Assembly (NCBI GenBank): GCA_017744515.1
Contig: JAGIBF010000024.1
Coordinates: 1-64,000 of the forward strand
Direction: 5' to 3'
Source: Niastella sp.
GTDB lineage: Bacteria; Bacteroidota; Bacteroidia; Chitinophagales; Chitinophagaceae
Length of the DNA stretch: 64,000 bases
Position 1 is the stretch's first letter, and each line of letters begins with the position of its first letter. This document shows positions 2,756-61,998 of the stretch, in pieces. Position numbers and translations under genes: made by a program. The notes under the pieces are model-generated. The model saw nothing but the letters and a program-made list of their open reading frames with translations, was not told where the DNA came from and ran no database searches.

Positions 2756-3124
2756 GTACAATTAATTTTTGTTTGTTTAGTGTTAATGGAAAAGACTCTA
2801 CCTCAGGTAATATGAAACTACCTGTGCAGTACGTTTATAATGATTATTGACAGCCTCTTTTGCCACCAACGGATCAGCTAATAACAAGCACATAAATGGT
2901 TATGCGCTTGCATGCCTGCTCAGTCAGCAACAAGGGAAGGGGTCAATAAGATTGGTTGAGATCTCTGCCTTTCGTATAAAAGCAGCAATGGGCATACGTT
3001 TCGCTTGTGGTCAAGCCATGCCTGTTTACCGGAAGAAACCTTGGGCAATAGTTTTTTTCTCATACTTGTGACTAATCGTTCAAACGAAACCGGCCATTAG
3101 CTGGTTTACATTTTTATTGGACAA

Positions 3125-3151
3125 CAAACATATAGTGTACGCTGCTTACAA
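3125..3151 (-). promoter_or_regulatory. Candidate SusC promoter (TATGTTTG, minus strand)
   Basis: Read on the minus strand, bases 3132-3125 are TATGTTTG, an exact match to the Bacteroidota -7 element TAnnTTTG. A TTG at 3151-3149 lies 16 bases upstream, slightly closer than the usual 17-23. It would drive the SusC gene starting at 2755. No other match on this strand was seen in the gap. Confidence 0.45.
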
Positions 3152-3255
3152 TTTTTAGTTTTAATGTCATAAAAGACAGAAGCTGTTTTTTAACAGACGA
3201 ACAGCTATGCCTACCCGCCTTTTCGTATTTTTGCTAAAACATTCTGGATCAAATG

Positions 3256-3285
3256 AAAATGCTCCTGGTAAAGGAGCATTTTTAT
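3256..3285. terminator. Perfect 11-bp hairpin with T-run
   Basis: AAAATGCTCCT (3256-3266) pairs perfectly with AGGAGCATTTT (3272-3282) around a 5-base loop, followed by T residues on the plus strand. No plus-strand gene precedes it. It lies 23 bp downstream of a plus-strand TATTTTTG element, so it could end a very short transcript, or act in the other direction inside the lipoprotein/SusC gap. Confidence 0.6.
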
Positions 3286-3401
3286 TACATTCTTATCTTG
3301 TTATTTTTAATCATTTATTTTCTCTCCCGCTCTTTTACGATTGATTATAGCTCATTTGCCTCAATCTCTATTATGTAAGCCTTAACCGTATGGGCATAAA
3401 A

Positions 3402-3432
3402 AAGCATTGCGGGAATAAATCCCGCAATGCTT
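3402..3432 (-). terminator. Intrinsic terminator of the SusC-SusD-lipoprotein operon
   Basis: A perfect 13-bp stem (AAGCATTGCGGGA with its complement at 3420-3432) and a 5-base loop, followed on the minus strand by a run of Ts. It lies 34 bp downstream of the lipoprotein stop codon. Confidence 0.85.
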
Positions 3433-3465
3433 CCTATCGTAGTGATTAAACTACTTGTAAGTATG

Positions 3466-4323
3466 TTATTTGCCTACAATGATATCAAACTCTTGTTCGT
3501 AGAAGGCTGCACTTCCCGGCGCAGGATAATTGTTTACAATGATATCCACGTACAGGGTCAGCTTATTATTACATACAGAGAACTTGCTCACCTTGGTAGG
3601 TGAAGTACGGATCAGGAAAGGCTGGCCAGCTGCGAATTCCTTATTGGTTTGCTGCAAAGGAATGTTCACGATCGTGTTGGTAGGAGTGGTCCAGTCGAAC
3701 TCGATGTTAACTGCACCGAAATAATCCCACAGGTTAGCGATCGTACCGGTAGCCTTCTTAGGGGCACCTACTGCCGGGTTAGTAAGGCCTGCAACGGTTA
3801 CGCTGTAAGGGCCATACGTGCCGCCCGCTTCCAAAGTGCCGGGATAAGAGCCGTTCATTACTGTAATATTATCTACATCGCCATCGAAGCAAGGTCCGCG
3901 CATGAACAATTTAAAGGTATTGTTGCTCAGCAACGGATCAACGCCGGACTGCAGGGTGAAAATAAGAGAGTCTTTTCTACCAGCATTATATAGAGCGAAG
4001 TTACCCTTCACTTCTACAATTCCTACGGCTTGTCCGGCAGGGATGGTAACGGTATGGCCTGTGAGGGTATACTGTGTACCTTCAACAGCTCCTGTAGGAG
4101 ACGCAACGGTAAAGTTGATCACACGATCAACATTTTCCGTGGTCGTAGTTCCTATCTTCAATTGATAAGCGGGCGTGGTAGTGGCCAACACTGAATAGGA
4201 AGCGCCGGTTATATAATTAAAGTGTGCCTTGGAAACGGGTATGGTTGTTTCCTCTTTTTTACAACCAGCCATAAATAAACCCAGGCCGGCTATGAGCAGT
4301 AAACAACTTAATTTCTGTAACAT
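3466..4323 (-). CDS. Surface lipoprotein, third gene of a Sus-type operon
   Basis: A 285-residue protein with a lipoprotein signal peptide (MLQKLSCLLLIAGLGLFMAGC; lipobox Cys21 followed by KKEE). The mature part is beta-rich. Residues about 30-135 resemble Calx-beta/DUF1735-like modules found in Bacteroidota surface lipoproteins (NFTVASPTGAVEGTQYTL, then VTIPAGQAVGIVEVKG). The remainder I do not recognise. It lies 40 bp downstream of the interrupted SusD gene, on the same strand, and is followed by a strong terminator, so it is the last gene of the SusC-SusD operon. By position it may be a glycan- or peptide-binding accessory lipoprotein of the SusE/F kind; that is inference from context, not sequence identity. 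Confidence 0.75.
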   Translation of the reverse strand: MLQKLSCLLLIAGLGLFMAGCKKEETTIPVSKAHFNYITGASYSVLATTTPAYQLKIGTTTTENVDRVINFTVASPTGAVEGTQYTLTGHTVTIPAGQAVGIVEVKGNFALYNAGRKDSLIFTLQSGVDPLLSNNTFKLFMRGPCFDGDVDNITVMNGSYPGTLEAGGTYGPYSVTVAGLTNPAVGAPKKATGTIANLWDYFGAVNIEFDWTTPTNTIVNIPLQQTNKEFAAGQPFLIRTSPTKVSKFSVCNNKLTLYVDIIVNNYPAPGSAAFYEQEFDIIVGK

Positions 4324-4363
4324 AAAAATATGTTTTGTCTTTAAATAGTATTGATGATCTCAC

Positions 4364-5758
4364 TTATTGCCTGTAGGTCGGATTCTGGATCATGTTCTCA
4401 TTAGCCAGAATTTCGCCACCCGGAATAGGATAATAATATTCCTTATCGGTTGGGGCAAGTGTTGTTTTGTTGGGAGCATTTGCTACATCCTGTCCAGTCC
4501 TTACTACAGGTAATAATTTCCTACGCAGGTCATGCATCCTTTGTCCTTCAAAAGCCAGTTCTTTGAAACGCTCTTGTAGAACAGCGTTTACGAGGGCGTC
4601 CTTGGTAGTGAAGGTTTCATCTACATACCCGGTGATCCTTTGTCTGCGTAATGTATTCAGGTCGGCTCCACCTTGTGTAAACTGTGTTTTTTCAGCATAT
4701 GCTTCTGCCCTGATCAGGTACATTTCGGCTACACGGAATACTTTCACGTCAGCACGGCCAGCTTCGTTGGCTGTACCGCCAATCCATTTTGCTACCGCCC
4801 AGCGGCCACCACCGAGGTCGGTTGCAGTGCTGGCAAACGGGATATCAGTTGCCGGGGTGAATAAACTCATCAATTTAAATGAAGGTGCATACATGATCTT
4901 GCTGGAGGTACGGTCGAAGTAAGAATCACCCAACCTTGCCTGTCCGGCATCTCTTTTGTGCTCCCAGACTATTTCAATATTGTTTGCATCTGTCCAGATA
5001 CCGGGATACTGAGCACGCGTGGCCAGCGGAACGGCATTGATAACAGCTGTAGCAGCTGTGATGGCCGCATCCCAGTTTTTCTGGTAAAGTGCTACTCTTG
5101 CTTGTAATGCACGTATGCCTAAAAGCGTCATGCGTGAAACATCCGTAAAGGTAGCGGGCATGAGGCCAGCTGCAGTAGTAAGGTCTTCGTTAACTTTTGT
5201 GAAAACTTCTCCTACAGTAAGGCGCTTGGGCTTTTGAATTTCGGATTTGGTAGAATAAGGTACGCCCAGTGAACCTGATTCGAGGTTTTCGGCATAGTTG
5301 ATCAATACCTGGAACTCACAAAATGCTCTTATGGCAATTGCTTCAGCTTTGATCCTATCCCGGGTAGCCGCATCAGCAGCTGAGAGACCGGTGAGTTTAT
5401 CGGCTGCAGCAATGACACGATTGGCACGATCAACACCAAATGCATACCTCGTCCAGGGTGCTGTTACATCACCAACACCGGGATCAGTTTGCCAACGGTG
5501 GGCGATTACGCCACGACCTGTATTGTTCTCCGTAGGCAGGTTGGCCTAATCTGAGTACAGGCTGGTAGCATAAATTTCTGCATCGTAAGAGCCGTTAATA
5601 TTTATATACACACCTATCATACCCTTTTCCAGAAAAGGAACGGTGGTCATGGCTGTTTCCTCCGGGATCTGATCGGGCGGCAGTATTTCCAGTTGTTTTT
5701 TGCAGGAAACGCCTATTACGGCCAGACCTGCAATCCATAATAATTTCTTTATCGACAT
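4364..5758 (-). pseudogene. SusD/RagB-family lipoprotein gene interrupted by an in-frame amber stop
   Basis: The frame is 465 codons including the final stop, a normal SusD length, but codon 71 is TAG (5548-5546). Codons 1-70 give a lipoprotein signal (MSIKKLLWIAGLAVIGVSC) and a typical SusD start (KKQLEILPPDQIPEE). Immediately after the stop the same frame continues without any other interruption: ANLPTENNTGRGVIAHRW, then TPR-like SusD helices, then the usual end KEYYYPIPGGEILANENM. By family comparison a Glu is expected at the stop position, so a single GAG-to-TAG change explains it. The gene starts 11 bp after the SusC stop. It is either a very recent nonsense mutation, a base-call error or a suppressed stop. 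If translation stops there, only a 70-residue stub is made; reinitiation at a downstream TTG (5305) is possible but would lack the lipobox. Confidence 0.9.
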
Positions 5759-5769
5759 ATACTGATTTT

Positions 5770-8700
5770 TTAGAAAGTTAAGTTGATACCAAACGTGTAT
5801 GTACGGGCATTGGGATACTCGAACGTGCTGATGTTGTTGTTATCTTCCGGATCAAAGCCTCTCCAATTGGTCCATGTATAGAGGTTTTGCGCCTGTGCGA
5901 ATATGGTAGCAGCAGAGAAAACACCTATTTGTTGTAAGTATTTCCTTGGGATATTGTAACCCACGTTCAGGTTCCTGAAACGTACATAAGAAGCATCCTG
6001 GATGTCTTTGGAAGAGAAGCTTCTTGCAGAACCAAAGCGTTGTACTTTGGCCACATCTCCTGGTTTTCTCCAACGTTTGAACCATTCTGTTGACTGGTTA
6101 CTGGTTGCAAAAGTATAGTTCTCGTTAAAGAAGTCTTCGTTGTTGAAGCGTTTGTTACCGGCAGCAAATGAGAAGAAGGCTTCTACATAAACACCTTTGT
6201 AGTTAAGGCTACCGTTGAAACCGCCTGTTACCTTGGGCAACCAGCTTCCGAACTCAGCTACCGCCTGTGCAGATTGGTTATAGCTGTTTGTGAGAGAACC
6301 ATCCCTGTTGTAATAGAGCGGGTTACCAGTAGCAGCATCTACACCACCCCATTTAGGAATGAAGTGTGTACCGAAAGGCAGACCTACACGGATGATAGAA
6401 GTACCGAGCGGGAATTCACTCACCTGACCCAGGCTCGTAATTTCATTCTTATTGTATGCGGCATTACCACCGATTGTCAGGCGGAAGTCGTTCTTAACGA
6501 TCACATCACCAGCCAGCGAAACTTCCACACCACGGTTGCGCATTTCACCCGCGTTAACGTTCAGCGATCCGACGCCTGACCATGAAGAAAGCTGCTGGGA
6601 AATGAACAGGTTCTTGGTTTGTTTATTGTAGTATTCAACTGTACCGCGGATGCGGGCATTCAGCAGAGTGAAGTCTACACCAACGTTGAAAGTATTATTA
6701 TACTCCCAATCGTAATTTTGGTTACCCAACTGGCTTACCACATATCCAGACTGGCCGGCGTAAGGCGTAGTTGAGTTTCCATACAGTGACAGATAGCCAA
6801 ATGAATTAAGGAAAGGACTGGCTGAAGTACCATAGCTGGCACGCAGTTGCAGGTCGGACACAAAATCGAGTGTAGACATGAAATTTTCTTTCATGACATT
6901 CCAGCTACCACCTACTGCATAGTAAGAGATATTCCGGTTATTCTCCGGTACAGCAGAAGAAGCGTCTAAACGATAGCTTCCGTTGAAAGAGTATTTTCCA
7001 TCAAACGTATAACGCAGGATACCGATCAGCGATTGCGTTGCCTGGTGATCCCTGCCACCACCTGTTGTTGGGATGAAACCTCCAGTAGCAGTGCCTGGGG
7101 TAATTGCAGCAGGCGTATTCAGCAATAATGGGTTGATGCCAAAACCTACATAAGAGAAGGCGCGGCTGGTCCATTTGATGTTCTCTACGAGCGCAGAGGC
7201 ATCAACCTGGTGTTTTTCAGCAATGGTTTTGTTATAATTCAACCCTGCGTTACCTATCAGTTGCAGGAAGCGGTTAGCACCTTCAGAGAAAGAACCCTGT
7301 CCACCTAAGCTTTGACGCCCGGTAGCCGTTCTTGGGTCTACGAGACGCTCTGTCATCAATTCGCGGAAATCGAGACCAAAAGTACCAACGGCAGAAAGGC
7401 CATCGAATATTTTGTATTTGATGTTGCCACCTAATACTGCTTTTATCTCGTTTCGCTTGTTGGTAGTAGCCAACATACGCTCCAGGGCAGCTGAACCTTC
7501 GCGCTGGTCATATACCAGGTTGCTGCCTGCAGTAGCAGGCAGTAATGGATCATAATCAGCCGGGTTAGAAGGATTAAGCCTTGGGCCAGAAGTATTGTTA
7601 CCATGCAGTAATACGCCATTTCTATACGGCAACTCGTAAGGCAGTGCGTAATAGATAGAGGAGAATGGGTTTACAATAGAAGTACCATTCTCACCTTCGA
7701 TGAAATAGCTGGTAGCATAGTTCAGGGTCATATTAAGACCAATCGTCAACCTGTCTGACTTAAAATCCAGGTTGTTCCTGAAAGAGAAGCGCTCCAGTGC
7801 TGAGCGAACGGCAATACCTTCTTGCTTGAAATAGTTGAGTGAAGAATAGAAAGCAGTACGCTCACTACCGCCACTTGCATTCACTTCAAACTCCTGTGTT
7901 TTACCACGACGGAGGAATACATCTTCCCAGGGAGAGCTGGTATTGCGCAAGCTATCGAGTATCTGGTCATATCTTACGAGCCTGGATTCGGCTACACCTG
8001 CGTTCCTGGGGTTTTTCCTTGACAAGTACCAGCCTGGTCCGATGTTAGCTCCATTCTCAAGACCTACTTCTTCTTCGAATTGCAGGTGCTCGGCAGAGGT
8101 CATCATATCGAACTTGGGCCTTGTGCGGTTGGAAAAACCATATTGTGATTTTACACCGAAAGTAAGTTTATTGTTCATTTTCCCTCTTTTGGTAGTGATC
8201 ACGATCACACCGTTAGAACCACGGGAACCGTATACTGCTGTTGCTGCCGCATCTTTCAATACGTCTACAGAAGCTATATCAGAAGGGCTGATAGCAGCAA
8301 AAGCAGCTGCCTGGATGGGAATACCATCCATAATGTACAATGGCGCACTGGTACCGTTGATGGTACCTACACCACGGATGATCACGTTGGCGGCGGCACC
8401 GGGCTGACCGGAACCAGCAGTAGCATATAGACCGGGAGCACGACCCTGGAGGATCTGATCGAGGCTGGCATTGGGCACCTGGTTGATGGCTTTCGCCTCT
8501 ACCTTAGATACAGCACCTACATAAGTAGAGCGCTTTTGGGTACCGTAACCGGTTACCACCACCTCATCGAGACCCTTGCCTTCGACAGTCATTGAAACAG
8601 CAATTACAGTCTTGCTGCCAATGCTAAGGTCTTGCTCGGCATAACCTACTGCAGAAATTGTAAGTGTTTTTGCGGAAGCGGGAACCCTGAATGAGAATGA

Positions 8701-8877
8701 CCCATCGGCCCCTGTAGTAGTACCTAATGAAGATCCTTTAACTGTAACAGAAGCGCCTAATACCGGTGCACCGGCGGCATCTGTCACCTTTCCTGAAATC
8801 GTCCTTTCCTGTGCCTGTGCCACCATCTGACTTAACATCAGCAGGGCGCATAGCAACGTACATAGAATTTTCCTCAT
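5770..8877 (-). CDS. SusC/RagA-family TonB-linked outer-membrane protein
   Basis: A complete SusC homologue of 1035 residues. It has a signal peptide (MRKILCTLLCALLMLSQMVAQAQ), a carboxypeptidase-like domain (ERTISGKVTDAAGAPVLGAS), a TonB-box/plug region (GLDEVVVTGYGTQKRSTYVG, then SLDQILQGRAPG and VLKDAAATAVYGSRGSNGV) and a 22-strand-type barrel ending in the outer-membrane signature NARTYTFGINLTF. It is the first gene of the operon with the interrupted SusD and the lipoprotein. It should import a ligand delivered by SusD across the outer membrane using TonB-ExbBD. With the partner SusD broken, uptake through this channel may be impaired. The substrate is unknown; no glycoside hydrolase or peptidase lies next to it in the window. 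Confidence 0.96.
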   Translation of the reverse strand: MRKILCTLLCALLMLSQMVAQAQERTISGKVTDAAGAPVLGASVTVKGSSLGTTTGADGSFSFRVPASAKTLTISAVGYAEQDLSIGSKTVIAVSMTVEGKGLDEVVVTGYGTQKRSTYVGAVSKVEAKAINQVPNASLDQILQGRAPGLYATAGSGQPGAAANVIIRGVGTINGTSAPLYIMDGIPIQAAAFAAISPSDIASVDVLKDAAATAVYGSRGSNGVIVITTKRGKMNNKLTFGVKSQYGFSNRTRPKFDMMTSAEHLQFEEEVGLENGANIGPGWYLSRKNPRNAGVAESRLVRYDQILDSLRNTSSPWEDVFLRRGKTQEFEVNASGGSERTAFYSSLNYFKQEGIAVRSALERFSFRNNLDFKSDRLTIGLNMTLNYATSYFIEGENGTSIVNPFSSIYYALPYELPYRNGVLLHGNNTSGPRLNPSNPADYDPLLPATAGSNLVYDQREGSAALERMLATTNKRNEIKAVLGGNIKYKIFDGLSAVGTFGLDFRELMTERLVDPRTATGRQSLGGQGSFSEGANRFLQLIGNAGLNYNKTIAEKHQVDASALVENIKWTSRAFSYVGFGINPLLLNTPAAITPGTATGGFIPTTGGGRDHQATQSLIGILRYTFDGKYSFNGSYRLDASSAVPENNRNISYYAVGGSWNVMKENFMSTLDFVSDLQLRASYGTSASPFLNSFGYLSLYGNSTTPYAGQSGYVVSQLGNQNYDWEYNNTFNVGVDFTLLNARIRGTVEYYNKQTKNLFISQQLSSWSGVGSLNVNAGEMRNRGVEVSLAGDVIVKNDFRLTIGGNAAYNKNEITSLGQVSEFPLGTSIIRVGLPFGTHFIPKWGGVDAATGNPLYYNRDGSLTNSYNQSAQAVAEFGSWLPKVTGGFNGSLNYKGVYVEAFFSFAAGNKRFNNEDFFNENYTFATSNQSTEWFKRWRKPGDVAKVQRFGSARSFSSKDIQDASYVRFRNLNVGYNIPRKYLQQIGVFSAATIFAQAQNLYTWTNWRGFDPEDNNNISTFEYPNARTYTFGINLTF

Positions 8878-9392
8878 GAACGTTGATTTTGATTTTATGA
8901 TAAAAAGAGATTATTAAAATTGTCTTAAAACAGGGACACCTACCGATCGTTCTTTGCTGCTTTTGAACCTAATTATTCTCTGTTTTAGCTGATCTTATCA
9001 TGAATACCTGAACATATCGGTAAATCCTGTAATTCAATGGATTGCCGTGTTGCTACTACACAGAGACCCTGGTACCTGCAGCTTTTACCTGCCTATACAA
9101 TTTGTATTATAAATAACCGATAAGAAAAATAAGTCCGTGAGGGTGGTTTTACGGACAGTAGTGGAGGTAAAGCTTTTCTCATATAAATAATGGGTTTAAG
9201 CACTGGGGCAATTGGTCATAAACAGTTGTTAAAGTTGTAAAGATATTATCAACACCTCTAAAAAATAGTATTTTCCGAAATTAAAATAGGTAACCTAAGC
9301 ATAATACCCACTTTTGGGGATATGCTTGCTAAAACACATTAGCATTGATTTCGCTATGATGGCGCCTCAAGATAAGAACAGGCTAAGAAGCC
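8878..9392. other. Gene-free 515-bp region between the MMPL exporter and the SusC operon
   Basis: AT-rich upstream region of the SusC gene. I found no open frame that resembles a gene and no minus-strand match to TAnnTTTG. No FecI/FecR-type regulator lies nearby. A weak hairpin (AGGCT/AGCCT) overlaps the stop of the MMPL gene and is not convincing as a terminator. Confidence 0.5.
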
Positions 9393-11747
9393 TTATTTCT
9401 TGCGCTCTTTCCTGACAAAACTCATGAGCAAGGTGGGCAGGAATATCAGGTTGGTGAGGGTAGCCAATACCAGGGTCAATGAAGTAAGCCATCCTAATGC
9501 CTGCGTGCCGCCAAAGCCGCTGAAGCAGAAGATCACAAACCCCGCTATCAACACCAGTGATGTATAAATGATACTGATACCTGTTTTGTGGATGGTACTG
9601 ATCACAATCTCCTGCGCCGATTTGTCACTGTTTTGTAATTCCTGTTTATAGTTGACCAGGAACCGGATGGTAATGTCGATGGCAATACCCAGCGCCACGG
9701 AAAACACCAACACAGTAGAGGGTTTGATGGCAACGCCCGTCCATCCCATTACGCCCGCCGTGATCACCAGCGGAATAACGTTGGGCACCAACGAGCACAG
9801 AAGTATTTTGAAAGACCTGAACAGGTACAGCATGCAGAGGGCGATCAGGAGGAAAGCCCATGCTATACTTTCTTTAAGGCCGTTGATGATAAATGCACTG
9901 CCTTCGAGGAAGGTAACCGTGGTACCGGTAAATTCAACGTTGTATTTAGTGGTGTCGAACAGCTGATCGCTTTTTGCTTCTATATTGCTGATGAGCTCCG
10001 GTAACCGCTTGCTGCCTACATCGGCCATGTTAACGCTGATGCGGGTACGCTGCCGGGTGGTATCCATAAAGCTGCTGACTATCCGGGTAAGGTTATTCGC
10101 TTTACCCGTGCTGTCTCCTGATTTGGTAGTCAGGTACTGGGCCAGGAAGCCAATATCGAAGCTGGTGGGCAATCCATACTGCAGGCTATCGCCTTCATAA
10201 TAGGCCTGACGGGCAAACTTCAATCCTTCTACAATCGAAAGCGGGCGGGCCATTTCGGGTTGTGCCGCTATATAGGCCGACAGGGAATCCATTTTACCGA
10301 ATGTTTGCAGCATATTGGCTCGAAGGCCATTCTTCCTTTTCGTATCTACCACTATTTCAAGGGGCATTACTCCTTTGAAATGCTTTTCAAAGAATTTGAG
10401 GTCTGTATATATTTTATCGGTCTTGGGCAGGTCATCCACCATAAATCCTTCGGAGCGCAAGCGGAGAATACCTATCACCGCCACCACCAGCAGCACGCTG
10501 GTAAACGCATAGATGTTTTTGCGATGGCTCACCGACCATATTTCCAATCGGTCCAATACAGAAAGCATCCATTTGTTATCGAGGTAACGGGTATGCCGGG
10601 GTTTGGGCGGCGGCAGGAAGCTCAGTATTACCGGAATGAAGATGATGGAGATAAAGAAAAGGGCCATGATGTTGATACCGGCCACAAAGCCAAACTCTTT
10701 CAACACCGCGCTTTTGGTAAGTGCGAAAACGCCGAAACCAATGGCGGCCGCAATGTTACAAAACAACGTAACTATGCCCATACGGCTAATCATTTCTGTG
10801 AGGGCCGTATATTTTCGTTGTGCCGGATCGGCTATGCCTGCCGTATCATTCCAGGCTGTATGGAATTTGTTCAGGAAGTAAATACAGTTGGGTATACCGA
10901 TCACCACCACCAACGGTGGTATGAGGGCATTCAGGATCGTGATCTTGTAGCCCATCAGCACCATGGTGCCGAGGCTCCACAGCACACCAATGATCACCAC
11001 TGCCAGCGACATACCCATCGCGCTAAAGCTGCGGAAAGAGATGAGCAGCAGTATGGCGGAAAGTACAATGGAGCCGAGGAGAAACCACTGCATCTCGCGG
11101 GCAACCTTGGTGGCAATATTGGTACGTATGAGGGGCAGACCACTGTAATGCATTTCCAGCGAATGGCTTTTACCAAAGGCATCGCCCACTTCCACAATCT
11201 TTGCCACTACATCGTTTCTTTTTTTCGAGTTGAGCACATCCTTATTGATGCGGATGGCCATCATGTAGGTGTTCGTCTCCGGATTGTAGAGCAGGCCCTG
11301 GTAAAACTTCAGGCTGCGAAATATGGCAGCGCTGCTATCGATGGTAGCCTGCGTGAGACGGCCAGGCGGAAATATCAGGGAAGCGTTGAGCTTTTCGGCG
11401 GCTGAATCCCTGAGCAGGTTGCTGGCAGCCGGCACACTCAGCACATCTTCCACGGCTTCTACCTTTTTCATATCGGCCGCGAGGGCTGTATAGTCGTTGA
11501 ATATTTTTTCCGTGAAGAGTTGATCAGTCTGAACACCTATTACCAGCAGGTTGCCATCTTCACCAAATTGCTGGCGGAATGCCTGGTAGGTGAGGTACTT
11601 GGGATTGTCGGTAGGTATGGCTCTTGTAAATTCATAGCTCAATTGCACTTTGGAGGCGTAGTAGCCGAGGTAGGCGGTAACTGCTAATAATATACCCAGT
11701 AACAACCAGCGAAATCGCAGAATGAATCGTGCAAGGGTTCCCCACAT
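9393..11747 (-). CDS. MMPL/RND-superfamily exporter (HAE3-like)
   Basis: A 784-residue inner-membrane protein with the two-fold RND layout: one membrane segment near the N-terminus (residues 8-30), a large extracytoplasmic loop (about 35-205), a block of about five membrane segments (about 215-385), then the pattern repeats (segment near 415, loop to about 615, block to the C-terminus). Motifs include the DDLPKTDKIYTDLKFFEKHF region of the second loop and GIAIDITIRFLVNYKQEL in the second membrane block, with acidic residues as expected for proton coupling. The family includes hydrophobe/lipid exporters and hopanoid transporters. It stands alone between the SusC operon and porZ, so the cargo cannot be assigned. 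Confidence 0.9.
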   Translation of the reverse strand: MWGTLARFILRFRWLLLGILLAVTAYLGYYASKVQLSYEFTRAIPTDNPKYLTYQAFRQQFGEDGNLLVIGVQTDQLFTEKIFNDYTALAADMKKVEAVEDVLSVPAASNLLRDSAAEKLNASLIFPPGRLTQATIDSSAAIFRSLKFYQGLLYNPETNTYMMAIRINKDVLNSKKRNDVVAKIVEVGDAFGKSHSLEMHYSGLPLIRTNIATKVAREMQWFLLGSIVLSAILLLISFRSFSAMGMSLAVVIIGVLWSLGTMVLMGYKITILNALIPPLVVVIGIPNCIYFLNKFHTAWNDTAGIADPAQRKYTALTEMISRMGIVTLFCNIAAAIGFGVFALTKSAVLKEFGFVAGINIMALFFISIIFIPVILSFLPPPKPRHTRYLDNKWMLSVLDRLEIWSVSHRKNIYAFTSVLLVVAVIGILRLRSEGFMVDDLPKTDKIYTDLKFFEKHFKGVMPLEIVVDTKRKNGLRANMLQTFGKMDSLSAYIAAQPEMARPLSIVEGLKFARQAYYEGDSLQYGLPTSFDIGFLAQYLTTKSGDSTGKANNLTRIVSSFMDTTRQRTRISVNMADVGSKRLPELISNIEAKSDQLFDTTKYNVEFTGTTVTFLEGSAFIINGLKESIAWAFLLIALCMLYLFRSFKILLCSLVPNVIPLVITAGVMGWTGVAIKPSTVLVFSVALGIAIDITIRFLVNYKQELQNSDKSAQEIVISTIHKTGISIIYTSLVLIAGFVIFCFSGFGGTQALGWLTSLTLVLATLTNLIFLPTLLMSFVRKERKK

Positions 11748-16371: not shown

Positions 16372-16395
16372 GTTAAATATAAAAATACAGCAAAC

Positions 16396-17460
16396 ATGTT
16401 AGACAAACTGGAAGCGATCAAGGCTCGTTTTGAGGACCTGGGTGTAGCGTTGACCAACCCTGCTATTGTAAGCGATAACAAGAAGTTTACAGAGTTGAGC
16501 AAGGAATACCGCAGCCTGGAAAAGATCGTTACAGCCCATAATCAATATAAAGAGTTGTTGAATGACCTGGAAAGTTACCGGGCTGCTATCAAGGGTGATG
16601 ATGATGAGCTGCGCGAGTTGGCCAAGGAAGAACTGCCTTCGCTGGAAGAAAAGAAGGATAAGCTGGAGGCCGATATCCGCCAGCTGCTGATACCGAAAGA
16701 CCCGCAGGACCAGAAGAATGTGATCCTGGAGATCCGTGGTGGAACGGGTGGTGATGAGGCCAGTTTATTTGCCGGTAACCTGCTGCGTATGTACCTTCGT
16801 TATTGCGAACGGAAGGGCTGGAAAACAGCTATCCTCAGTGAGACGGAAGGAACCGTAGGTGGCTATAAAGAGGTGCAGCTGGAAGTGGTGGGTGATGATG
16901 TGTATGGCACCCTGAAATTTGAAAGTGGCGTTCACCGGGTACAGCGGGTTCCCGATACAGAAGCTTCGGGTCGTGTGCATACCTCAGCTGCTACAGTGGC
17001 TGTGATGCCGGAAGCGGAGGAAGTGGATTTTGAATTGAATCCAAACGATGTAAAAATGGAAACTGCCCGAAGCGGTGGCGCCGGTGGACAGAACGTAAAC
17101 AAGGTAGAAACAAAAGTATTACTGACGCATATTCCGACGGGTACTGTAGTAGTTTGTCAAACGGAACGCTCCCAGTTGGGCAACCGTGAGAAGGCGATGC
17201 AGATGCTCCGTACCAAGTTGTACGAAGAGCAGGTACGCAAACAGGAAGATGAAATAGCCCGGCACCGGAAGAGCCTTGTAAGTACAGGCGACCGCAGTGC
17301 CAAGATCCGCACCTACAACTACCCGCAGGGCCGGGTAACTGATCACCGTATTGGCCTGACCGTTTATAACCTGGACGACGTTATGAATGGCAATATCCAG
17401 GAGTTTCTCGACGCACTGCAGTTTGCAGAGAATGCAGAGAAAATCGCCAAGCAGAACTAA
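16396..17460 (+). CDS. prfA: Peptide chain release factor 1
   Basis: A 354-residue RF1, which ends translation at UAA and UAG. It has the RF1 stop-recognition tripeptide PDT (PxT; residues 186-188, within [16 protein letters not shown]) and the peptidyl-hydrolase GGQ motif at 230-232 ([17 protein letters not shown]). The start at 16396 gives the standard N-terminus [16 protein letters not shown]. An in-frame extension back to 16318 exists, but it is made of the repeat element and was rejected. The gene is monocistronic and lacks the hemK/prmC neighbour seen in some bacteria. Confidence 0.96.
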
Positions 17461-26897: not shown

Positions 26898-26959
26898 ATA
26901 GCAGTTATTCCCCCGAACAGATTAGTGTTAAATTACATTCATGTGCCCTGACATAAAGA

Positions 26960-26995
26960 AAACACGGCCTGTCCAGTAACGATCAGACCGTGTTT
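26960..26995. terminator. Bidirectional-looking intrinsic terminator
   Basis: AAACACGGCCTG pairs with CAGACCGTGTTT (12 bp with one G-U or A-C position depending on strand), and both flanks are A/T rich. It separates the 68-residue gene (27100-27306) from the lectin gene on the minus strand. Confidence 0.75.
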
Positions 26996-27099
26996 CTTTT
27001 TCGATCATTCACCGCTTTTACACGGTATCATGATCTTAGTAAGCCAAAAACTTATATACTACATACAGCTACCCGCCCAATGGCGGCATAACCGGTTAG

Positions 27100-27306
27100 T
27101 TATTCCCAACCTTGTTTTGCTACACCAGCTTTAATGGCAGCCAGTGCTTTTTCCTCACCCAGCAGGGTAGTCAGCTTGTTACCTTTACCATCGTGTCCTT
27201 GTGCCATATAAGCCCCTTTCGCGGTTTTGGTGATCACTGCATCCTGAATAGGAACTCCTTTCTCTTTGGTCTTAACATTGTATGCGGTCAATTGTACATC
27301 TGCCAT
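27100..27306 (-). CDS. Small conserved hypothetical protein (68 residues)
   Basis: A short soluble protein beginning MADVQLTAYNVKTKEKGVPI, with no signal peptide and no cysteine. Its sequence is typical of small conserved Bacteroidota proteins of unknown role. Coding is supported by an ATG start, balanced composition and an independent terminator downstream. It is monocistronic. No function is proposed. Confidence 0.7.
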   Translation of the reverse strand: MADVQLTAYNVKTKEKGVPIQDAVITKTAKGAYMAQGHDGKGNKLTTLLGEEKALAAIKAGVAKQGWE

Positions 27307-27514
27307 AATAAAAACATTTATCGGTTAGTAAAATAAACTTATCTCTTCAAAAATGTGACCGGTTTGGGCTTAAAAGATCGATAAATATACAGCTTTTTAT
27401 AATAAAGGCTTATATGTGTTGATTATCAATCATTTGAAATAAACATCCGCTTTCTGCTGTTTTTCCTGTGAAAGGTTTATTTTGATGCATCATAAGTCAA
27501 AACAACCCACCGAC

Positions 27515-29209
27515 ATGAAAAACGTTATCCTGCAACTGTTGGCTGTGGCAGCTCCCTTCCTCCTTTTTGCCCAGCCCCAAAAGTCCCTGAACGCTTTCAG
27601 CAAGATAAGCCTGGCCGAAAAACCATTTACTGTTACAGGTACTTTTGTGGGATATAACCCTTCAGTTGATTCGTTCCAGTTCTGCAAGGTCGTTTATAAT
27701 CACCTGTACAAAGATGACCAGCAAAACCATGTGGGTGAAGTTGATAAAAATGGCAAGTTCAGCATTACTTTTCCCCTCAACCGTCCGCAGGAGATCATGT
27801 TCCTCTTTGGCGAAGAGCTGGTCATGTTCTACGCAGTACCCGGCAGCTCACTGGATATTCAGCTTGACCTTGCCGGGTTTAAAACACTTGCCAAACTGCC
27901 TTACGTTGAACAACTCAAGCAGCGTGAACCTATGGCCTTTGCCGGCCAGTATGCACAACTCAATAAGGACTATAATGCTTTCAGACCAATCCTCAATTCA
28001 ATCCTGAGTTATAAAGTCCATTATGATCTTATAGACTCACTGGATCAAATGGCCTATAAACAATACCGCCTCGACGTCATGGATCGTATGTTGCAGGCGC
28101 TTGCCAGCTTCAACGGGAAGAACAATACCAGTTCAGAGTTCCGGCAGTTGATGACGCAGTATATCCGCTACTATGCCGCCGAAGACCTGCTTCGTTACCG
28201 CTGGATGCACGGCATGGTAAAAACACGGCGGCCAGTGGAGAAGCTGACACCGGAGTACCTTAGCTTTTTAGAAACGATGCCAGTAGACAATGAAGAAGCG
28301 GTGATCACGGAGACCTATAGTAACTTTTTAAGGGAATATGCCAGCTTATACAAAGCACAAATGCTCACCGCCATGACGACTGTAGACAACCATTATTTCA
28401 TTGTTTACCTGAGGCAGTATGATACTCCGGTCTCCACAGAAGAACAGCAGGCAGCAGAGATGCCGCCTGCCAACAGAAATGCGGCCCAGCAACAGCTGGT
28501 CGATTCATTTAATAAAAGACATAGTGCAGCCAGAAGCGAACTGATCGGTAGGCTGAACTTTAAACATTCGATGGACTCTTTAGCATTGTTTGTACGACGT
28601 GGAGTATCCAAAGACCTTTTGTCGGCAAGGATTACAGCGAGCTATTTAAACAGCTACCGCACTCCACTTACCGAAAATGAAATGAATAAAATATCCGGTG
28701 AGCTGACCAATGCGGATGTACAGGCCCAAATTGCACGGGACAATCAACGCTTACGCGATGTGCTGGCAGGCAAAATGAGCAATGCCACTCACGTACGCAC
28801 TGCCCTGCAGGTAAGCAGCGATAAGTTCTTTGATGAACTGATGAAACCCTACAAAGGAAAAGTAGTCTATATCGATTTCTGGGCGCCCTGGTGCGGCCCC
28901 TGCATGGGCGAAATGCCTGATTCGAAGGAATTACAAAAAGAACTCGCAGGCAAGGATGTGGTATTTCTTTACATCGGCATCAGCTGTACCAAACAATCGT
29001 GGGAAAATACCATCAAGGACAAGGGCATAGAAGGAGAACATTACTTTGCCAATGACAGAGATGGCAAACTGCTATCCGAGAAGTTCAACATCTCAGGCAT
29101 TCCACATTATGTGCTGGTAGATAAAACGGGTAAAGTGGCCGATGATCGCGCCATGCGACCCAGTGATAAAACAAAGCTGCTGAGAAAGATCAATGGATTG
29201 TTGAAGTAA
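27515..29209 (+). CDS. TlpA-like thioredoxin-domain protein
   Basis: A 564-residue exported protein. From the ATG at 27515 it has a signal peptide (MKNVILQLLAVAAPFLLFAQ). Residues about 25-430 form a helical/mixed region of the kind found ahead of TlpA domains in Bacteroidota. A C-terminal thioredoxin fold follows, with FWAPWCGPCMGEMPDSKELQ; the redox pair is C460/C463, and the cis-Pro region is SGIPHYVLVDKTGKV. It should act as a periplasmic disulfide reductase or thiol exchanger. The longer start at 27482 places 11 charged residues before the signal peptide and is less likely. Confidence 0.9.
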   Translation: MKNVILQLLAVAAPFLLFAQPQKSLNAFSKISLAEKPFTVTGTFVGYNPSVDSFQFCKVVYNHLYKDDQQNHVGEVDKNGKFSITFPLNRPQEIMFLFGEELVMFYAVPGSSLDIQLDLAGFKTLAKLPYVEQLKQREPMAFAGQYAQLNKDYNAFRPILNSILSYKVHYDLIDSLDQMAYKQYRLDVMDRMLQALASFNGKNNTSSEFRQLMTQYIRYYAAEDLLRYRWMHGMVKTRRPVEKLTPEYLSFLETMPVDNEEAVITETYSNFLREYASLYKAQMLTAMTTVDNHYFIVYLRQYDTPVSTEEQQAAEMPPANRNAAQQQLVDSFNKRHSAARSELIGRLNFKHSMDSLALFVRRGVSKDLLSARITASYLNSYRTPLTENEMNKISGELTNADVQAQIARDNQRLRDVLAGKMSNATHVRTALQVSSDKFFDELMKPYKGKVVYIDFWAPWCGPCMGEMPDSKELQKELAGKDVVFLYIGISCTKQSWENTIKDKGIEGEHYFANDRDGKLLSEKFNISGIPHYVLVDKTGKVADDRAMRPSDKTKLLRKINGLLK

Positions 29210-58443: not shown

Positions 58444-61400
58444 ATGAGAAAGCTACGCCTGGCTACCCTTGTGGTAGTCATAACCTTATCCTGTTATTCA
58501 TCCGCATGGGCCGATACCTTTATGGTAACCAGTGCTCTTGCGAGCGGCGCTGGCAGCCTCCGGGAAGCTATTGAAAAAGCCAATGCCAACGGCACGGCTG
58601 TTACCGATTATATCCTGTTCGACCTCCCCACCCGCCGCGGTCCCGTCACTATCTTATTGAATCCCAACATGCCACTGCCCGGACTTACGTCCAACATCAT
58701 CATCGACGCCAGTTCACAGCCGGGTGATCCTTTAGGCGTTACCAATGCCAAAGTAGCGGTAGCTATACAAGGTTTCTTTTCCAATGACAACACCGACTAT
58801 TACATCTTCCAGGCCAGCAATGCCACCAATGTCCAGATCTACGGCTTCTTTCTTTGGGCCCAGGTGGGCGACCGGAATACAGGCACGCCGCCAACAAACC
58901 TGTATGCCATCCACCTGCGCAATTGCAGTGAAGTGACCATCGGCGCCCCGGGCAAAGGCAACCTGATCAGCGGCTGGAAGCGAGGCGTATATACCGAATA
59001 CTTCCGTGGGCAGGCAAGCCACCACATTACCGTCCAATCCAACACGATGGGCGTAAATACCGACGGCATTTCGACAGTACTCGTTGCCGGCACCCGTCCC
59101 GGCGATCCCGGCACACCCGCCACCAACCAGTATGGAATCTACTTCGACCGCGCTACCGACATCTTCATAGGAGGAGAAGCGCCCGGACAAGGCAACTCTA
59201 TCAACGCACAAAATGACATCTTCTGCACCGGGCACCCCGATCCGGCCATCAACGATAGCTTACTCATCATCAACAACAAGCTGGGCATCGATATCAATGA
59301 CGATATGGTGGCCGCCAACTCACTGACAGGCATTACGGTGCAGGATTACCAAAAGCTCAACTCCACCAACAGGGCAAGCGCCGGCCTCATTATCCGCAAA
59401 AATTACATTGCCGGCCGATCACGCTTCAACGCCATCTCACTGGCCAACATACAAAGCTATTTTGCTATCGAACAAAACCTGCTGGGTGGCGAAAAGCGCA
59501 ACGCCCCCATCCGGAACACCACACTGGAATCCGGCATCATGATCGTAAACTGTCCCGCAGGTATCATCGGCGGCACCGCACCCGGCAATGAAAACTATAT
59601 CCGCTATTGCAGCCGTACGGCCCTGATGCTCACCAGCACTTCCAACATCACATTTCGTTACAATAGCACCTACTGCAACAACCAACAGCCCATCACCATC
59701 AGCAACTGGGCTGCCGCCAACGGAGCAAGGCCGCAACCATTCATTACGATCAACGGCCTCAACCAGGCCACAGGCACCATACGCGGCACAGCTCTGCCCG
59801 GCTCTACCATCGATCTTTATGCAGATGATAATTGCCCGGGCTGCGAAGGCAAAACACATCTCGGTCTGGTAACCACTGCCGATGCCAGCGGCCAATGGAC
59901 CTATACCGATCCTGCCCTCACCGGCAAAAGCATCATCGCTACGGCCACAGACCCCCAGGGAGCCACTTCAAAATATTCAGCACCCTTGATAGAAGATGCC
60001 AACGTACGCATCACCGGCGTCAGCTGCACGGCGTTGGGAGCTATATGCGGCGTCAGGATCATCAGCGGAGCAGAGTGGGAATGGAGAGATGAAGCAGGAA
60101 CAGTAGTAAGCCGCGACACCTGCCTCAGCAATGTGCCTGCAGGCACCTATACTTTGTGGCTGCCTGTTGGCACAGGCTCCTGCGAGTCTACCTACACGTT
60201 CATCGTTCCGGACAACTCACTCAACATCGACTCCAGCGCCGGCATCATGATCACCAATGCACGATGCAATAAAAACAATGGTTCCATCTGTGGCATCAAC
60301 CCCGTAGGGGCCACAAACTGGGGATGGGAAGATGCCGCCGGCAATTTCATCACCACGGCTGCCTGCCTCAGGAATGTATTGCCGGGCAGCTATCGCTTCA
60401 GAGTAACCGATGGAGCCTGCGACAAATACACCCGCTATTATACAATCACCAATACTTCGCCCGACATAGATGCAGCCAATCTGCAAACAACAGCCACAAC
60501 CTGTAGCCAGCCCAACGCATCTATCAGCGGCATTACCCTATCAGGCATGAACTTCTCGTCCCTGCAATGGATAAATGAAAACAGAAATGTAGTAGGCACT
60601 ACAGCTGATCTTTCGAACATACCTGCAGGCCGTTATAAACTCATTGCATTGGATAATACAGCAGGTTGCGGCGACTCTACTAATTGGATTACCATAACAG
60701 CTACACCGGCACTTGCACTAAACACTACAACAGCACAGATCAGCGACGCTACCTGTGGACAAACCAATGGCAGTATCCGCAACATCACGTTCACCAATCC
60801 AGATGGAATGGTAGCAACAATTTGGGTAGATGAACAAGGAACAGTAGTAGGCAACAACCTCGACCTGCAACCAATAAAAGCAGGAAAGTACCGGTTGAAA
60901 ATAAAAGATAGAAGCACTTGCGACACATTGATATCACCGGTCTTTGAAGTATCAGGCTATGCACCTGCACCATTGTTGGTAATACAGGCAACAGAAAAAG
61001 ATGCTACCTGCAACCAATCCAACGGCAGCATCCAGGTCAACCAGCTCAACAATAACGCAGCGCTATACACTTTCCGTTGGTTACTGGACAGTACTACCCA
61101 GATCGGGTCAGCGCTTTCAATTTCCAACCTGAATCCGGCCACCTATCATCTCATAGCTACCGACGCCAACGGTTGCGGGCAAGCGATCTACAAAAAAACA
61201 ATTCGTATGCAGCCCCTTCCGGCCATGAATGAAGACAGGGCACTTGTGCAACCCGACAGATGTGGATTTGGCACCGGTAGCATTACCGGCATTATTGCTA
61301 CCAGTGCTGCCGGAGCCCTGCAATATCAATGGTTTAACAGTAATAACCAGATAGCAGGACAGCAACCAACCATCAGCAATTTGCACGAAGGAAACTACCA

Positions 61401-61998
61401 CCTGCTTATAACGGACATAAATGGCTGTCAGCTACGTAGTGCCGGCTATGCTATTACACAGGATATCAGCACATTACCGGTGCCTCAATATGACAACATC
61501 ACCATAGCCCGGCATACAGATGGCATCCTGAAGGTGAAAAATCCGCAAGCTGGCGCAACATATATATTATATAATGCAGCAACCAATACAGCACTTGAAG
61601 AAAATCAAACAGGCATCTTCACAGTAAGAAGAGTACCGGAAGACACACATTATTATATAGAGTACAAAGCGGGCCCTTGCAACAGTGATCGCGGGCAGGT
61701 AAGCATCAAGGTCATAGATATGACCAAATTAGATATCCCTAATACCTTTACTCCCAACAACGATGGCATCAATGATGAGTTCCGCATCCGTATTACAGGG
61801 TACTTCAAACTAAATGGATTGAAGATTTTCAACCGTTGGGGACAGTTAGTATTTGAGACGAAAGACCCCAACTTTGTGTGGAATGGGAAAAAAAATGGAC
61901 ACAATATCCCGGTAGCTACTTACTACTGGGTCATTGAAGGAATTGATCTAAACGGTAAATTCTTGCGCCAGGCAGGCTCTGTTACATTGATTCGTTAA
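58444..61998 (+). CDS. Large T9SS-exported adhesin-like protein with SprB-type repeats
   Basis: A 1184-residue secreted protein. The signal peptide is MRKLRLATLVVVITLSCYSSAWA. Residues about 25-510 look like a parallel beta-helix (GAGSLREAIEKANAN, a motif of pectate-lyase-like/adhesin helices, and many NxxT/G turns). From about 520 to 1010 there are six units of about 80 residues, each with a pattern like A-T-C-x-x-x-N-G-S-I near its start and AGxYxL...D..GC near its end, resembling SprB/adhesin repeats. The C-terminus (about 1095-1184) is a type B T9SS domain (LDIPNTFTPNNDGINDEFRI ... VATYYWVIEGID). It is probably a surface adhesin. Confidence 0.87.
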   Translation: MRKLRLATLVVVITLSCYSSAWADTFMVTSALASGAGSLREAIEKANANGTAVTDYILFDLPTRRGPVTILLNPNMPLPGLTSNIIIDASSQPGDPLGVTNAKVAVAIQGFFSNDNTDYYIFQASNATNVQIYGFFLWAQVGDRNTGTPPTNLYAIHLRNCSEVTIGAPGKGNLISGWKRGVYTEYFRGQASHHITVQSNTMGVNTDGISTVLVAGTRPGDPGTPATNQYGIYFDRATDIFIGGEAPGQGNSINAQNDIFCTGHPDPAINDSLLIINNKLGIDINDDMVAANSLTGITVQDYQKLNSTNRASAGLIIRKNYIAGRSRFNAISLANIQSYFAIEQNLLGGEKRNAPIRNTTLESGIMIVNCPAGIIGGTAPGNENYIRYCSRTALMLTSTSNITFRYNSTYCNNQQPITISNWAAANGARPQPFITINGLNQATGTIRGTALPGSTIDLYADDNCPGCEGKTHLGLVTTADASGQWTYTDPALTGKSIIATATDPQGATSKYSAPLIEDANVRITGVSCTALGAICGVRIISGAEWEWRDEAGTVVSRDTCLSNVPAGTYTLWLPVGTGSCESTYTFIVPDNSLNIDSSAGIMITNARCNKNNGSICGINPVGATNWGWEDAAGNFITTAACLRNVLPGSYRFRVTDGACDKYTRYYTITNTSPDIDAANLQTTATTCSQPNASISGITLSGMNFSSLQWINENRNVVGTTADLSNIPAGRYKLIALDNTAGCGDSTNWITITATPALALNTTTAQISDATCGQTNGSIRNITFTNPDGMVATIWVDEQGTVVGNNLDLQPIKAGKYRLKIKDRSTCDTLISPVFEVSGYAPAPLLVIQATEKDATCNQSNGSIQVNQLNNNAALYTFRWLLDSTTQIGSALSISNLNPATYHLIATDANGCGQAIYKKTIRMQPLPAMNEDRALVQPDRCGFGTGSITGIIATSAAGALQYQWFNSNNQIAGQQPTISNLHEGNYHLLITDINGCQLRSAGYAITQDISTLPVPQYDNITIARHTDGILKVKNPQAGATYILYNAATNTALEENQTGIFTVRRVPEDTHYYIEYKAGPCNSDRGQVSIKVIDMTKLDIPNTFTPNNDGINDEFRIRITGYFKLNGLKIFNRWGQLVFETKDPNFVWNGKKNGHNIPVATYYWVIEGIDLNGKFLRQAGSVTLIR

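Follow-up and report, generated by a model that had tools for sequence, protein, structure and literature searches.

An in-frame amber codon in a SusD-family gene of Niastella sp., probably a recent nonsense mutation

The window, that is, the whole 64,000-nucleotide stretch of Niastella sp. DNA that was analysed, carries on its reverse strand a group of three genes, namely a SusC/RagA TonB-linked outer-membrane transporter (positions 5770–8877, 1035 aa), a SusD/RagB-family gene lying downstream of it (4364–5758), and an open lipoprotein-like gene (3466–4323, 285 aa), whose lipobox was recognised by eye, downstream of SusD. The transporter matches the model TIGR04056 with 720 bits over positions 1–981 of 981, and both neighbours of SusD are intact, as had been stated from the first inspection of the sequence. 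At E ≤ 0.001 neither Pfam nor NCBIfam offers a match for the lipoprotein-like gene; it has counterparts beside SusD in three genomes of the same genus, with identities of 38% (G002), 31% (G003) and 34% (G001). A second SusC gene is located on the same strand at 8–2689 and, covering 880 of the 981 model positions, seems to be cut by the contig end; its partner SusD could lie beyond that end.

The SusD frame extends from an ATG at 5758 to a terminal TAA at 4366–4364 and comprises 465 codons including the terminal stop, 464 of them preceding it. With codon 71 read as X, the translated frame matches the Pfam families SusD_RagB (92.8 bits; cut-off 23.1) and SusD-like_3 (35.5 bits; cut-off 27), and the two domains are found in the order expected along a SusD protein. 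The earlier note had described the frame as being of normal length and otherwise intact, and both its ends and its Pfam scores agree with that description. Because the frame is collinear end to end with an intact orthologue, it cannot reasonably be ascribed to chance. Codon 71 (5546–5548) is an in-frame TAG, located exactly where it had been reported. Past it the frame is open, as claimed; the 394 codons counted there, however, include the terminal stop, the number of sense codons being 393. Furthermore, the stop does not lie just after the lipobox, as had been supposed, since the candidate lipobox cysteine, assigned by eye, is residue 19 and the TAG is found 52 residues further on. The first in-frame start past the TAG is a TTG at codon 152. 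Searching positions 3400–9400 against a plasmid collection by megablast gave one 84-base match to SusC and nothing else useful, a sequence search among solved structures returned 13 SusD-type chains with nothing bearing on the stop, and a literature survey by title and beginning of abstract found nothing on this SusD locus.

Comparison with four other genomes of the genus (G001 to G004) demonstrated that collinearity between G002 and the window extends, apart from some gaps, from 4.2 to 64 kb. Orthologues of SusD without an internal stop are present in three of the four, at 80% (G002), 66% (G003) and 64% (G001) identity; in G004 there was no SusD match at E ≤ 1e-100, all 146 candidates having been scored. 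The TAG is separated from the corresponding codon of G002 by a single-base transversion. When the residue at the stopped position was compared among homologues, as the earlier note had proposed, glutamate was found in 12 of the 13 distinct sequences (found at E ≤ 1e-60, with duplicate loci removed) and a stop in none; the thirteenth has an alignment gap next to an identical Ser-Asp-Glu string. The nearest paralogue within the genome, with a protein identity of 47%, also has glutamate at this position. Among distant paralogues, 16 alignments reach the stopped position (a number that includes the nearest paralogue and in which two rows represent one gene), and these exhibit glutamate in three cases, another residue in 12 and a gap in one. 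As judged from these alignments, the glutamate at codon 71 is conserved inside the close SusD group, not across the whole family.

The part of the gene past the stop shows no obvious decay. The Nei-Gojobori dN/dS ratio of SusD against G002 is 0.070 before the stop and 0.094 after it, both values being rough since the dS of about 1.5 is nearly saturated. Successive pieces of 80 codons past the stop gave ratios from 0.04 to 0.22, with dS not computable for one of them, and the corresponding values were 0.079 for SusC and 0.038 to 0.165 for nine other genes hand-picked from the window. With G003 and G001 as outgroups, 19 amino-acid changes in SusD were assigned to the window lineage and 19 to the G002 lineage, the respective numbers being 1 vs 4 before the stop and 18 vs 15 after it. 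Relaxed selection, which would be expected only of an old pseudogene, is thus not indicated by any clear excess of change past the stop, and therefore the stop is either recent compared with the divergence from G002 or an artefact. In these sequence comparisons the absence of decay is equally compatible with an error and with a mutation of very recent date, and both possibilities, already raised in the earlier note, fit a single substitution at a residue that is kept in close homologues. A separate observation from the same counts is that SusC (5770–8877) has 59 amino-acid changes in the window lineage and 35 in the G002 lineage (p = 0.017, uncorrected).

The most probable reading, with an estimated probability of about 0.6, is that a recent nonsense mutation has inactivated, in this strain, the SusD lid protein belonging to one SusC-SusD-lipoprotein gene group. 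Translation would begin normally and release factor 1 would end synthesis at codon 71, leaving a 70-residue stub that would consist of the signal peptide, the lipobox and about 50 more residues. A restart at codon 152 would yield a product devoid of the export signal, as both signal peptide and lipobox would be missing, so that the loss of full SusD anticipated in the earlier note is a sound deduction. Deprived of its lid, SusC would form an uptake system that is impaired or dead, and expression of the downstream gene at 3466–4323 may drop through polarity. It is inferred jointly that the TAG is genuine, the stub inactive and the loss tolerated. Such a loss would be tolerable because SusC and SusD genes number in the dozens in this genome; a close relative of this SusD is absent from one other genome of the genus.

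Comparable lesions have been described in other Bacteroidota. In Elizabethkingia anophelis, a susD nonsense mutation was common to the 26 isolates of one sub-cluster, the same gene carried five or six parallel protein mutations during the outbreak, from which selection was inferred by the authors, and mutY was interrupted in the strain (PMC5458099). That case resembles the window in that a SusD-family gene is hit by a nonsense mutation in a natural member of the Bacteroidota; it differs in that 26 isolates and inferred selection are reported there, whereas here there is a single sequence and a mutY match without a stop (model positions 2–271 of 277), so that no mutator background is indicated for base changes of this kind. 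In a coevolved Flavobacterium johnsoniae, one base inserted at coding position 793 shifted the frame of a RagB/SusD gene, and moving this frameshift into the ancestor left the susceptibility to the antibiotic or antibiotics of the partner unchanged (PMC10197871). As in the window, one small mutation cuts a RagB/SusD protein short, the lesion there being an insertion in a laboratory line and the one here a substitution. A parallel for the functional consequence is offered by the SusCD levan transporter Bt1763-Bt1762 of Bacteroides thetaiotaomicron, which, like the pair in the window, combines a TonB-dependent SusC with a SusD lid, albeit in a different species and for a different substrate. Without the levan SusD, growth on levan was reported to lag by about 8 h, and levan-system mutants with longer lags were taken as non-functional by the authors (PMC7782687). 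By analogy with the levan system, the uptake system of the window would presumably be impaired. A SusD nonsense allele most likely belongs to an ordinary, already known kind and represents no new mechanism. If real, it would add one more case of a simple mutation removing a single SusC-SusD system among many and leaving its SusC orphaned. The stop has no bearing on an open question, and its practical lesson is one of caution, as a single base call may suffice, in a draft genome, to drop a lid protein from the annotation.

A serious rival, regarded as possible rather than probable, is that the real gene is intact and that the TAG either arose as an error of sequencing or assembly or reflects a minority variant that became fixed in the draft consensus, the draft possibly being metagenome-derived. 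Such an origin is suggested by the isolation of the substitution, since over codons 56–111 the window differs from G002 at only four of 56 residues, the stop being one of the four, and the lack of clear relaxation past the stop points in the same direction. The transversion, moreover, is of the guanine-oxidation class, a known class of artefact (PMC12390751). The assembly is a draft of 7.63 Mb in 172 contigs, 93.02% complete, the window forming the first 64 kb of its 82.8-kb contig C89, and two other SusD genes in it are interrupted by gaps of 10 N. Against an artefact, the window itself contains no N (0 bases), and no comparable stop was met in the gene sets described below. Single nonsense alleles, furthermore, are common in real bacterial genomes.

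Within the window, 39 genes with a counterpart in G002 (14,752 codons) were compared, and a stop within the aligned span was found in two, namely SusD and a gene whose own end falls three codons short of the end of the alignment. These 39 were retained from 48 matches at ≥ 45% identity, which involved 47 distinct G002 frames out of 102 searched. The nine matches left out comprised one paralogous SusC, two of one repetitive protein and six that were short or incomplete or lay close to the edge of the window; stops were seen only in that at 26945–27208, the other eight having none. At least 56 SusC matches are present in the genome, and in all 56 (56 of 202 candidates scored) the matched stretch has no stop. 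SusD_RagB matches number 78, of which 73 are in open frames of at least 437 aa, this being a length of the frame that does not guarantee a whole N-terminus. The remaining five are the SusD discussed here, two at contig edges (C5 and C81) and two with gaps of 10 N (C20 and C144). Since no stop comparable to that in SusD was met in the 39 window genes, in the 56 SusC matches or in the SusD matches, errors are not abundant in the regions covered. The sole other stop marked among the SusD matches is a terminal one: a single TAA at C84:30587–30916, considered as a sign of a broken SusD, proved to be the codon that closes an open frame of 482 aa. Stops suspected in several further SusD genes (one each in L002, L005 and L006) were likewise discarded, as the alignments display none that is internal and those marked were taken as terminal. 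A short hit at L025 (query positions 337–464) has one stop; the Pfam match on that contig stretch (C11:100064–100828) lies in an open frame of 526 aa and has no stop. The short SusD frames on C20 and C144 were rejected as broken genes, the 10-N gaps accounting for both. Runs of exactly 10 N inside two SusD genes apart from the present one, at L101 1178–1187 and L102 1806–1815, resemble scaffold gap fillers.

Returning to a real stop, the TAG might be read through or suppressed, with some full-length SusD made and its amount held low. The conserved, open frame past the TAG would accord with this, as would the RNA around the stop, a 150-nt segment of which folds better than its shuffles (z = −2.69, with 2 of 200 shuffles as good, in a single unplanned test). 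The same site in the three orthologues gave z values of −1.01, −0.15 and 0.01, and readthrough programmed by RNA structure was therefore rejected, the fold not being common to them. Moreover, none of the 12 homologues with a residue at the position has a stop there. The gene prfA, encoding release factor 1, the factor responsible for termination at UAG, is present in the window on the forward strand (model-match span 16393–17451), with no stop inside a match of 498.6 bits (cut-off 423.25) over model positions 5–357 of 361. TAG also serves as a regular terminator, the 39 window genes ending with TAA in 26 cases, TGA in nine and TAG in four, and no other in-frame TAG was detected in the remaining 38 window genes or inside the matched SusC and SusD stretches. 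In the genome, 41 tRNAs were found by Rfam (150 of 256 candidates scored). No UAG-reading anticodon occurs among the 40 of them that were named by ARAGORN, in a list that is incomplete, as a tRNA-Tyr (gta) identified by ARAGORN in L064 is absent from the 41; the forty-first (C113:5590–5662) has the loop CCUGGAA, read by eye as a UGG proline anticodon. Pyrrolysyl-tRNA synthetase (pylS) was not found at E ≤ 0.001 in the incomplete assembly. Recoding, suppression and pyrrolysine insertion are thus all unsupported by the searches made, and the option of a read-through stop, offered in the earlier note, is left without support on the same grounds. Readthrough is accordingly given very little credence, and slightly less still is given to its more specific form, in which the amber codon would be a genuine site of inefficient readthrough which, aided by the local fold, keeps the dose of SusD low relative to SusC. 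DNA inversion is known to occur at SusC/SusD loci of Bacteroides, and a switchable, phase-variable SusD, its frame restored by another copy or by inversion, is nevertheless the least credible of the explanations, as no inverted repeat of ≥ 16 nt (seed 11) was found in 3000–9400, the lesion is one substitution rather than a slip in a repeat tract, and ready recombination is unlikely because the nearest SusD copy in the genome, at 47% protein identity, is too distant. Even when taken together, readthrough and switching are highly improbable.

Several other features of the window and the genome were recorded. The stretch at 26945–27208 (forward strand), matched at 58% identity by a 104-aa frame of G002, contains two in-frame stops in the window and may be either intergenic DNA that has been conserved or a small gene that has been broken. 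Close by, a frame of 575 aa (27482–29209, forward strand) is matched by its G002 counterpart over approximately the last 130 residues only. The interval 27553–28837 lies between two nucleotide matches to G002 (matches of at least 150 bases being listed) and represents about 1.3 kb of extra or strongly diverged DNA. Elsewhere in the genome, at C113:4700–5800 (L089), eight tRNA genes are packed into about 830 bases; the anticodons of seven of these occur again at other places in the genome, and the array gives the impression of a phage-borne tRNA cluster. Finally, a protein of 1184 aa with a C-terminal CHU_C type IX secretion domain is encoded at 58444–61998 (forward strand); its counterpart in G002 has 1266 aa, and the two overlapping matches between them suggest that the numbers of an internal repeat differ.
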